From contig CAIJFT010000069.1 of NCBI GenBank assembly GCA_903820035.1, forward strand, positions 1 to 53,463: 53,463 nt of DNA, written 5' to 3'. The notes under the pieces were generated by a model, which made no database searches, was not told the DNA's origin, and saw nothing but the letters and a program-made list of their open reading frames with translations. The stretch is from an uncultured Opitutia bacterium. GTDB lineage: Bacteria; Verrucomicrobiota; Verrucomicrobiia; Opitutales; Opitutaceae. The first letter of the stretch is position 1; the number at the start of each line of letters is the position of its first letter. Shown in pieces: positions 1 to 49,163 of this stretch. Made by a program: the position numbers and the translations under genes.

Positions 1-294
1 CGCTTGGTCGGCTTGCGACTGCCGGCTGAGACCAGACCACCAGACGGAATTAGAGCGGTTTCTCGATTTCTGTAGCCGCGTTTTCTCTTAGCGCCAACGG
101 GGCTACATTATTTCTGGAAACGCTATCGCCCCGAGCGCGAGGAGGATTTCACGCGGAGGCGCGGAGACGGCGGAGTTCAAGCGGAGCCCACTGATCCTAG
201 GCGCGGTAGGTCCCGCTGGGCGCCCGCCGGACACCGGTCGGGTCGCCGGCGTCCTTCAACCCGGAGCTTTCAACGCGAGGTCTCCGCGGGAGAA
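1..294. other. Intergenic stretch with dispersed-repeat fragments
   Basis: I see no credible gene here. The stretch carries pieces of two repeat types found elsewhere in the window. Positions 109-126 are, in reverse complement, 17/18 identical to 40221-40238, with GTAGCC next to both. Positions 150-164 hold the arm TCACGCGGAGGCGCG, which recurs in both units of the tandem repeat at 48118-48535. It lies downstream of the minus-strand phosphoesterase gene, so its role, if any, is at a 3' end. Confidence 0.5.
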
Positions 295-46907: not shown

Positions 46908-48050
46908 ATGTTTTTACCCCTCTTGTTGGCCGCGGCGGTGAGTACGGCGGCGCCGATCGATCCGTCCGGGTTTTATGACGCCACGCACCACTGGCGCAAA
47001 ATCAAGGAGCCGGAGCGGGTGATGCAGCCGTTGCCGGACCAGCCGTCCTACGATGCGAAACAGGTGCGCGAAATCGCCGCCAACGTGCTGCTGTTCCAGC
47101 GGGCGAACGGCGGTTGGCCGAAGGACTACGACATGCTGGCGATTCTTACCGAGGACCAGAAAAAGGCCCTGCGTGACTCGCACCCGAAGACCGACACCAC
47201 CTTCGACAACCATACGACGCACTCGCAGGTCGACTACCTGGCGCGGGCGTACGTCCTGCTCGGCGACCCCGCTCACCGCGCCGCGTGTGTCCGCGGTTTC
47301 GACTACATCGTGGCGCAGCAGTATCCGCATGGAGGATTCCCCCAGCGCACGCCGGGGGCGAAGGGCATCGCGGGGTTGATCACGTTCAACGACGGCGTGA
47401 TGATCGGGTGCCTCACGGTGTTGAAGGCGGCGGCGGAGCAGCAGCCGCATTTTGCGTGGCTGGACGACGCGCGGCGTGCGCAGGCGGTCGACGCGGTCCA
47501 GCGCGGCCTCGCGTGCCTGTTGTGCTGTCAGATTAAGGCGGACGGTCGGCTCACGGGCTGGGGGCAGCAGCATGATCCGGTGACGTTCGAGACGGTGGGG
47601 GCGCGGACCTTCGAGCTCGCGTGCATCGCACCGGGGGATACGGCCGAAGTGGGACAGTTTTTAATGAGTGTGCCGGCGCCGTCGCCCGAAATCGTCCGCG
47701 CGGTCGACGCGGCGATGGCATGGTTGACCAAGGTGAAGCTGACGGGGATCCGGGTGGACCGCGTGCCGGCGCCGCGCGAGGAGTTTGTGCGACATGCTTC
47801 GGACTATGATGTCGTGGTGGTGGCGGATGAGAAGGCGCGGCCGCTGTGGGCGCGGATGGTGGAGGTCGGGAGCGACCGCCCGATCTTCGCGAGCCGCGAC
47901 GGGATCAAGCGGTATTCGCTGGCCGAGGTGGATCGCGAGCGACGGACGGGATCGGGTTGGTATCTGCTTTCGCCGGTGCGGGTGGTGGAGCGGGAGTATC
48001 CGAAGTGGCGGGCCGGCCTGCGACCGGCGCAGGGCGGCCTCCTCCGATAG
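46908..48050 (+). CDS. Pectate lyase, family PL10
   Basis: A 380-residue exported enzyme with a short signal peptide (MFLPLLLAAAVSTAAP). PL10 features are clear: 'LLFQRANGGWPKDYDML', 'TTFDNHTTHSQVDYLARAY', 'AQQYPHGGFPQRTPG', 'ITFNDGVMIGCLTVLKA', and 'GWGQQHDPVTFETVGARTFE', an alpha/alpha-toroid fold with Asp and Arg as catalytic residues. It cleaves polygalacturonate by beta-elimination and points to pectin use. Near its end it has 'SRDGIKRYSLAEVDRERRTG', also typical of the family. It stands upstream of the 209-bp tandem repeat and divergent from icd. No other pectin gene is adjacent. Confidence 0.92.
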   Translation: MFLPLLLAAAVSTAAPIDPSGFYDATHHWRKIKEPERVMQPLPDQPSYDAKQVREIAANVLLFQRANGGWPKDYDMLAILTEDQKKALRDSHPKTDTTFDNHTTHSQVDYLARAYVLLGDPAHRAACVRGFDYIVAQQYPHGGFPQRTPGAKGIAGLITFNDGVMIGCLTVLKAAAEQQPHFAWLDDARRAQAVDAVQRGLACLLCCQIKADGRLTGWGQQHDPVTFETVGARTFELACIAPGDTAEVGQFLMSVPAPSPEIVRAVDAAMAWLTKVKLTGIRVDRVPAPREEFVRHASDYDVVVVADEKARPLWARMVEVGSDRPIFASRDGIKRYSLAEVDRERRTGSGWYLLSPVRVVEREYPKWRAGLRPAQGGLLR

Positions 48051-48117
48051 GCTCCGCTCGGGCGTTGTCGCCCTGCGCGTGGGTGTAGGTCGGTGGCGGG
48101 GAAGGCCGGGTCGCGGC

Positions 48118-48545
48118 GCTCAGCGCCGGCCTGGTGGCTCGCACATTAGACTCTTGGTGGGCGCGTCGGAGTTTCCGGGCATCCGCACGTTGCCAGATTG
48201 CACGCGGAGGCGCGGGGGATGCGGAGACCAAGCCAGCTCCCTCTCCGTGTCCTCCGCGCCTCCGCGTGAACCCATCTTCCCTTCGGGCAGCCGAAGGACG
48301 GCCCCACGGGGTCAGGTGTATATATTGCTCAGCGCCGGCCTGGTGCCTCGCACAGAAAACACCTGGCGGGCGCGTCGGAGTTTCCGGGCATCTGCGCGTT
48401 GCCAGATTGCACGCGGAGGCGCGGGGGATGCAGAGCCAAGCCAGCGCCCTCTCCGCGTCCTCCGCGCCTCCGCGTGAACCCAGCTTTCCCTTCGGGCAGC
48501 CGAAGGACGGACCCACGGGTTCATCTGCACATAGTGCTCAGCGCC
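48118..48545 (+). repeat. Tandem 209-bp direct repeat with internal hairpins
   Basis: Two units, 48118-48326 and 48327-48535, each starting GCTCAGCGCC, with the first bases of a third at 48536-48545. Units are nearly identical over most of their length. Each has a 15-bp inverted repeat, CACGCGGAGGCGCGG and CCGCGCCTCCGCGTG (48201-48215 with 48254-48268; 48410-48424 with 48462-48476), and a second hairpin CCTTCGG-GCAG-CCGAAGG. The region lies between the pectate lyase gene and a small secreted protein gene. Open frames through it are repeat artefacts. Function unknown. Confidence 0.85.
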
Positions 48546-48599
48546 TAAGCCGCGGATTTTTATTTCGCGCGGCGGGTCGGCGGGCGCATGGTGGAGCGG

Positions 48600-49163
48600 A
48601 TGAAACGACGTCTTTGGGGCAAATGGGCCGGGCTGTTCCTCCTCTCGAGCCTCGCGGCCATGGCGCAGATGCAGGTGCTGGACTTCGGGGCGCGCGGTAA
48701 GGTTACGCTTTTCCTGCTGGGTGAGTGGAAAGCGGCGACGACCGACATGGCCGGACAGTATACACTGACGCTGTCGCCGAAGAGCGAGGCGGTGAACGCG
48801 TCGTGTGTGATCTCGGTGGCGTTTCCCGAGGAGGACCGCTTCGACACGAAGGCGCGGCTCAAGCTGCGCGTCGAGGCGGATTGCCACAATGCGGCGGAGG
48901 AGTCGGTCGAGCGCAAAGCGTACGCAAAGGAACTCACCGTGGGGACGGGGTACGGTTTCTACTGCAATTTCACGGATCCGAATCTCCGCGGGAAACCGTC
49001 GGAAAAGGGCAACTACAAGGTGACGAGCATGGGGAAGGTGCGACCGCATGCATCGGTCGTGCTCGATGTGCAGATCCTGTCGGACGGTTTTGCTTCGGAG
49101 CCACACCAGCAGTTGCTCGGGGCGATCGAAGGGATGGAGTTCACGCCGCCGCGCGGGCGGTAA
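48600..49163 (+). CDS. Small secreted hypothetical protein
   Basis: A 187-residue exported protein. The signal peptide is 'MKRRLWGKWAGLFLLSSLAA' followed by 'MAQ'. The mature part is beta-rich ('KVTLFLLGEWKAATTDMAG', 'YTLTLSPKSEAVNASCVISV', 'TVGTGYGFYCNFTDPNLRG') and contains three cysteines. I do not recognise a named domain; it resembles small periplasmic proteins that bind or process envelope components, without stronger basis. An in-frame ATG at 48588 is also possible. It follows the tandem repeat by about 55 bp and is convergent with the EamA-type transporter gene. Confidence 0.75.
   Translation: MKRRLWGKWAGLFLLSSLAAMAQMQVLDFGARGKVTLFLLGEWKAATTDMAGQYTLTLSPKSEAVNASCVISVAFPEEDRFDTKARLKLRVEADCHNAAEESVERKAYAKELTVGTGYGFYCNFTDPNLRGKPSEKGNYKVTSMGKVRPHASVVLDVQILSDGFASEPHQQLLGAIEGMEFTPPRGR

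Follow-up and report, generated by a model that had tools for sequence, protein, structure and literature searches.

A tandemly duplicated palindrome in an Opitutaceae genome and its probable relationship to GxxExxY nucleases

MITEs of insertion sequences consist of inverted repeats without a gene, corresponding to the ends of an element that does carry one. REPINs, as described in PMC3116915, are short inverted doublets that are able to form hairpins and are dispersed through the genome, where single arms occur as well; the repeats around the gene of the associated enzyme, RAYT, are of the type that populates the genome, and the gene tree is largely congruent with that of the species (REPINs and RAYTs are also treated in PMC8049555). 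In TIRtrons/TIRYTs, as presented in PMC3733652, an enzyme gene is enclosed by long inverted repeats, and some of these repeats make up dispersed families as well; the enzymes are tyrosine transposases, and the main text of that article contains neither 'GCGGAG' nor 'Sphingo'.

The locus described here comes from an uncultured Opitutia bacterium of the family Opitutaceae (assembly GCA_903820035.1), hereafter the source genome, which comprises 6.05 Mb in 469 contigs. The window, i.e., the whole stretch of DNA that was analysed, is contig 69 (CAIJFT010000069.1; 53,463 nucleotides), and the relevant features are the following.

48118-48326, no strand: first tandem unit, 209 bp, a composite of a long palindrome, a short hairpin and the GGGGTCAGG tag (alignment, Tandem Repeats Finder)
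48327-48535, no strand: second tandem unit, 209 bp, 90% like the first (alignment, Tandem Repeats Finder)
48536-48545, no strand: initial 10 bases only of a third unit, GCTCAGCGCC (Tandem Repeats Finder, read in the sequence)
48199-48270, no strand: long palindrome of unit 1, with a three-repeat arm, a loop of ~16 and the reverse-complement arm (in the 22-copy alignment)
48408-48478, no strand: long palindrome of unit 2 (in the 22-copy alignment)
48280-48297, no strand: short hairpin of unit 1, CCTTCGG-GCAG-CCGAAGG (paired in the predicted fold)
48489-48506, no strand: short hairpin of unit 2, CCTTCGG-GCAG-CCGAAGG (paired in the predicted fold)
48308-48316, forward strand: GGGGTCAGG tag, resembling the end repeat of a Y1 gene (L031: AAAAGGGGTCAGGGCGAAAC) and sequence beside other long units
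148-167, reverse strand: lone arm of the same palindrome family at the opposite end of the window (arm pattern match)

For the region 48118-48545, Tandem Repeats Finder reports a period of 209, 2.0 copies, 90% matches and a score of 700, in agreement with the sequence-only reading, which had described a two-copy 209-bp tandem; the start of a third copy that it also mentioned is present but amounts to 10 bp. When aligned, the two units agree at 188 positions, with 20 mismatches and 2 gaps of a single base; the distance between corresponding positions is 209 except in the stretch from 48228, where it falls to 208. The perfect inverted repeat of 15 bp noted by the sequence-only reading is present in unit 1, CACGCGGAGGCGCGG / CCGCGCCTCCGCGTG (48201-48215 with 48254-48268), and forms the end of a more extended pair of arms (48201-48227 with 48242-48268) that matches at 89%; the corresponding pair of unit 2, 48410-48435 with 48451-48476, matches at 88%. 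The long hairpin is ~72 bp with arms of 26-27 bp, and the loops of such palindromes can be as short as ~14 bases. The second stem-loop claimed for each unit is likewise found, as the short hairpin listed above. A pectate lyase gene (46908-48050) precedes the repeat, and an ORF of no known family (48588-49163) follows it. No Pfam match was obtained for the two scanned ORFs that run through the repeat, 47905-48516 on the reverse strand and 47785-48477 on the forward strand, and a tRNA scan of the window found nothing. Just upstream of unit 1, the segment 48061-48088 resembles part of the GTAG-type REP of the source genome (GTAGCCCTGCGCGCACGCGCAGGGCGACAAGG), and REPs of this type also adjoin several other palindrome copies in that genome.

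A BLAST search of the source genome with unit 1 yields 43 matches. Related long units are present in C351 (two, in tandem), C75 and C342 (partial, at the contig end); the remaining matches cover the long palindrome or portions of the unit, and several copies lie at contig ends. The arm consists of three near-repeats of 8-9 bp, with the family form CACGCGGAG GCGCGGAG GACGCGGAG. Searching with the arm pattern CCTCCGCGNCTCCGCGTGAA produces 33 matches with at most one mismatch, vs 0 for the reversed-pattern control, and 51 vs 2 with at most two mismatches. Among the source-genome loci fetched, ~24 places contain both arms, 19 of them spanning 71-73 bp. In the printed copies from this and other genomes, the arms start with TTCAC or a similar sequence and finish with GTGAA or a similar one, with neither a GTAG nor a CGTC tag at the palindrome foot. 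Matching between left and right arms within the dispersed copies of this genome is weak and not convincing (13.0 vs 11.8, sd 0.52, 65 of the 5000 permutations being as high; the test includes 31 fuzzy matches, 7 of which, at 12 edits each, look spurious). A third kind of repeat in the source genome (L007, L008, L240), CACGAAACACACCAAATACACGAAA / CACGGAACACACGG, also consists of runs of 8-9-bp near-repeats and may be a further arm type within one superfamily. Within the family the distribution is patchy: 24 of the 150 genomes, the source genome included, have an arm match; of the other genomes, three carry 28-48 matches each, and most have none. The sequence-only reading had named the absence of copies elsewhere as an outcome that would speak against it; the count in the genome and its relatives shows them in both.

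The dispersal extends far beyond this family. Among named genomes, an exact 20-mer of the palindrome occurs in 119 stretches or more, and its carriers among the matches listed are above all Sphingomonadaceae, and also Planctomycetota, Kiritimatiellae, Gemmatimonadota (Gemmatimonadaceae), Burkholderiales, Gallionella, Chlorobiota, Spirochaetia, Chloroflexi and Thermoanaerobaculia. Eighty of these loci were counted, and they comprise 42 inverted doublets within 600 bp, 8 doublets of the opposite orientation and 30 single arms; in the 31 doublets printed, the interiors between the arms differ widely. One repeat-rich genome is G226 (Thermoanaerobaculia), with 251 CGCGGAG two-repeat arms vs 0 in the control and 88 CGCRAAG arms vs 2; among 40 places read in this genome, many are compact doublets, some of the opposite orientation. 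This genome also has two GxxExxY matches and would be a good model for a large palindrome population. In G007, a 47-kb region (C1 299874-346443, L237-L239) contains 42 arms at up to three mismatches; these arms are intermixed with another family of palindromes (TGGAGGGGCACGCTTTGTCGTGACC and reverse complement) and a GxxExxY gene. An integron-like origin of this cluster is conceivable.

Arms of this build are associated with genes of GxxExxY proteins, a link that lies outside the window and was not visible to the sequence-only reading. Altogether, 67 GxxExxY loci were compared: 30 from the family of the window, 28 from named genomes, 3 from the source genome, 5 from plasmids and 1 from a viral contig, a gene that a pattern scan of viral contigs found. 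The bracketed genes were assigned by a TIGR04256 profile score above the cut-off and match PF13366 as well. GxxExxY genes are present in 129 of the 150 family genomes, and the 30 loci are the best-scoring ones from these genomes rather than a random draw; the 28 named loci are what is left, after removal of the broken L331 and L332, of 30 listed for the 31 genomes with a GxxExxY match among 41 that were picked for carrying the 20-mer. The controls were displaced windows of the same loci (n=1340), replacing a cross-locus control (99th percentile 329), and 28 of 30 Y1_Tnp loci, the two with short flanks being dropped. Two or more properly oriented repeats on each side are found in 48 of the 67 GxxExxY loci, compared to 7 of the 1340 displaced windows and 0 of the 28 Y1-transposase loci; the wrong orientation is seen in 4/67. 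An inverted-repeat score of at least 34 is reached at 45/67 GxxExxY loci vs 2/1340 displaced windows, the other 22 loci having weak arms. The inner ends of the arms are located at median distances of 17 and 21 bp from the GxxExxY profile match. In 43 loci, the left and right arms of the same locus match each other with a mean score of 26.5 vs 10.2 (sd 0.83; 0/5000 permutations). For example, the arm GTTCACGCGGAGGCGCGGAGACGCGGAG of L323 is exactly mirrored, 26 and 14 bp from the profile match, and the arms of L319, L324, L325 and L330 are nearly exactly mirrored; in several Sphingomonas loci the arms have TTCACGCGGAGGCGCGGAG in common with the dispersed family. The sole arm-pattern match in the whole of G107 sits 53 bp from a GxxExxY match, and arm matches are also found 16-83 bp from GxxExxY matches in G080, G090, G139 and G007. 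At L259 (G053), the inverted match around the GxxExxY gene spans 119 bp, and each side is a whole palindrome instead of a single arm.

The source genome itself encodes three GxxExxY (PF13366) genes. One of them (L240) has mirrored arms of another type, CACGGAANA / GTAGCCCACGGAATACACGGAAGACACGGAAA, with 31 of 32 bases matching; the second (L242) has degenerate CGCGAAG-like repeats beside it, and the third (L241) is without arms, so that the local CACGCGGAG family lacks a cleanly matching gene in this genome. Among the 41 named genomes that carry the 20-mer, 10 are without a GxxExxY match; several of these are MAGs, and three are named strains, Sphingomonas aracearum, S. yantingensis and Sphingobium indicum BiD32. 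Some genomes without the gene are repeat-rich, e.g., G229, with 34 CGCGGAG and 131 CGCRAAG matches.

Analysis of the genomic context indicates that the GxxExxY gene mostly stays put while the arms around it turn over. In 12 of the 28 named GxxExxY loci, the gene is located between fabD and fabG; the annotation of Sphingomonas parapaucimobilis (L333), where only a left arm is seen, places it there as well. Among the 12 loci at this site, six genomes have CGCGGAG arms and six have CGCRAAG arms, one or two being mixed. Among protein pairs with at least 60% identity, 106 of 173 have a neighbouring ORF in common, so that the gene is mostly not seen to hop. The arm type at the gene corresponds to the type of the dispersed repeats in the same genome: the CGCRAAG fraction of the dispersed repeats is 0.03-0.41 in nine CGCGGAG-armed genomes vs 0.28-0.68 in eight CGCRAAG-armed ones (p = 0.0003) and, after subtraction of a reversed-pattern control that is large in some genomes (84/173 in G198), 0-0.41 vs 0.43-0.90 (p = 0.00008), and the correspondence is seen for the fabD-fabG loci only as well (six and six, p = 0.004); these p values, like the one given below for the family of the window, overstate independence, because assignment to arm types was in part visual, L321 and L328 being examples of mixed arms, and the genomes are related (the L324 and L330 proteins are 96% identical). 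The comparison covers 17 of the 28 named loci, typed by eye, with the 11 other or unclear ones dropped and the weak L313 and L318 kept. In the family of the window, the number of CACGGAG repeats follows the same correspondence, with a median of 19.5 in genomes with CACGGAG arms at the gene (n=8) vs 2 in the others (n=17; p = 0.0005), based on 25 of the 30 loci after G030, G013, G102, G016 and G082, with weak arms, were dropped.

Judging from its sequence, the GxxExxY protein is a member of the PD-(D/E)XK nuclease family with an intact predicted active site. These proteins show a strong match to PDDEXK_3 and weak matches to Cas4 profiles, below the Pfam cut-off. The D..ExK..QxxxY pattern is intact in all 60 aligned GxxExxY proteins; L330, which is outside the alignment, keeps D, ExK and Q and reads RLLESVY, i.e., the motif without the first G. 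This order of active-site residues is the same as in Cas4 and RecB-type PD-(D/E)XK nucleases, whereas GxxExxY forms a family of its own (PF13366/TIGR04256). The median dN/dS for the gene at the fab locus is 0.20 (22 pairs with dS below 1.5), which points to purifying selection. A search by sequence found no solved structural relative, and a structure model from three alignment rows was unusable (pLDDT 37.9).

One plasmid site is found both with and without a related miniature copy. In plasmids of Sphingobium, such arms are part of a mini-element of ~150 bp (measured length 147-150 in six plasmids) that starts 1-7 bases after the stop codon of repA. It is present in 7 of the 11 aligned plasmids (the plasmid matches H6, H7 and H8 lie outside the compared set); the empty site is found in two close relatives, Sphingobium indicum B90A pSRL2 and Sphingobium sp. 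AntQ-1 pl4, and two more distant plasmids are also without the mini-element. The empty sites are too diverged for a target-site duplication to be read. Among the three guesses on the nature of the repeat made by the sequence-only reading, a mobile palindromic unit is best compatible with this site and with the dispersal in and far beyond the source genome; the guess of a structured RNA is hardly supported, as detailed below.

Taken together, these observations suggest that the palindrome and the GxxExxY nuclease probably constitute a system similar to that of REPINs and RAYTs, with a different enzyme. The long hairpin of each 209-bp unit is a miniature, gene-less member of the dispersed palindrome family, and arms of the same build form the inverted repeats that lie ~20 bp outside both ends of many GxxExxY genes. 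This association is observed, whereas recognition, cutting and spreading by the nuclease, and the tandem step, are inferences from it. Under this hypothesis, the nuclease gene would be a resident, mostly inherited in place; its product would recognize the arm, probably as a hairpin on single-stranded DNA, and cut or process it, causing the palindromes to spread or be converted around the genome. The palindrome of the window, within the 209-bp composite with the short hairpin and the GGGGTCAGG tag, would have been duplicated in tandem later and locally. A broader version of the hypothesis, which we put forward tentatively and consider somewhat less secure, is that the GxxExxY nucleases seen in several phyla drive a second class of intragenomic palindrome populations that evolved independently, a PD-(D/E)XK counterpart of RAYT-REPIN whose own recognition code resides in the three-repeat arms; the dispersed palindromes would switch type together with the arms at the gene.

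The principal alternative is that another enzyme spreads the palindromes and GxxExxY is a passenger, either because the arms captured a useful nuclease gene or because they insert preferentially at its ends. The 10 of 41 repeat-bearing genomes that have no GxxExxY match would be accounted for in this way, as would the widely differing interiors of the 31 printed doublets and the location of the gene, mostly at fixed places. Against this, the arm type at the gene agrees with that of the dispersed repeats in two groups of genomes, both arms change jointly at one fixed site, and the nuclease is under purifying selection with its active site intact. We regard the passenger scenario as rather unlikely.

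Still less probable is that the palindromes are ordinary REP elements spread by RAYT (Y1) transposases. Y1_Tnp genes are indeed available, two in the source genome and at least one in 135 of the 150 family genomes, and in the source genome such a gene (L031, ~1339-2401) is bracketed by inverted repeats GGGCGAAACATGCAACA, with AAAAGGGGTCAG ahead of the left copy. The GGGGTCAGG tag is like this end repeat, so that the outer part of the 209-bp unit may owe its spread to the Y1 system. A tag like AAAAGGGGTCAG is also present beside the long units in C351 and C342. The palindrome itself is a different matter: an inverted-repeat score of at least 34 is reached at 11 of the 28 Y1 loci, but the repeats belong to another family (e.g., GCCCCAACGGGGC...GCCCGGGGC); CRCRRAG repeats on both sides of the gene are found at none of the 28, and the palindrome arms lack the GTAG or CGTC tag. 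A RAYT origin of the palindrome was accordingly set aside.

A structured RNA, transcription terminator or attenuator kept for its hairpin is very unlikely. Both units fold very stably, with -115 kcal/mol (z -6.1) for unit 1 and -112.9 kcal/mol (z -4.6) for unit 2 and 0 of 200 shuffles as good in either case, and the mini-element of the Sphingobium repA operon directly follows a stop codon. The covariation score over 22 source-genome copies is also slightly high (0.110 vs 0.096, with 25 of 500 shuffles as high), which is weak support at most. Against this, 88.2% of cells pair in these copies vs 87.5% in shuffles, changes on both sides of a pair show no excess (3 vs 3.3 in shuffles), no Rfam family reaches the threshold anywhere in the window, the long stem in the window is not followed by a T run, and one plasmid site carries a related copy in some plasmids and lacks it in others. 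A terminator scan gave one site vs 0.9 in shuffles; it considers loops of 3-8 only, so that the long hairpin is outside its reach.

Finally, an accidental duplication of unremarkable local sequence, or an artefact of assembly, is hardly credible as an explanation of the whole. The tandem as such did probably arise by local duplication, and the 469-contig assembly has several copies at contig ends; yet the units differ at 20 positions and by 2 gaps and so are not one sequence assembled twice, the palindrome is dispersed, and a second contig (C351) has related units in tandem.

The preferred reading, a palindrome family served by GxxExxY nucleases, would resemble the described systems only in part. 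Like MITEs, the palindromes lack a gene, and their repeats recur at the flanks of one, GxxExxY, which is no known transposase; the bracketed gene mostly stays in place, no target-site duplication is readable, and the loops of the palindromes are as small as ~14 bases. The similarity to REPINs and RAYTs extends to a resident gene flanked by the repeat type of its genome, here GxxExxY, and in other genomes rather than in the source genome. The differences are that the enzyme belongs to the PD-(D/E)XK family whereas RAYT is a Y1 HUH enzyme, that the arm is composed of three 8-9-bp near-repeats whereas REP is a GTAG-tagged stem, and that Y1 genes from this family of genomes have different repeats around them. 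A search of openly licensed papers found nothing that links GxxExxY proteins to repeats and no explained role for either the palindrome repeats or the GxxExxY genes; where papers name GxxExxY, the passages concerned mention the protein in passing only, and PMC9756366 names PF13366. This suggests that the pairing of nuclease and palindrome is undescribed among the papers searched.

The link would provide a candidate substrate for the nuclease and a candidate engine for the repeats. If it is true, the GxxExxY protein should recognize the arm type of its own genome. One family of genomes would then contain two palindrome systems, each having an enzyme of its own with repeats on its flanks, so that the question of why bacteria keep populations of palindromes can be asked in a second case.
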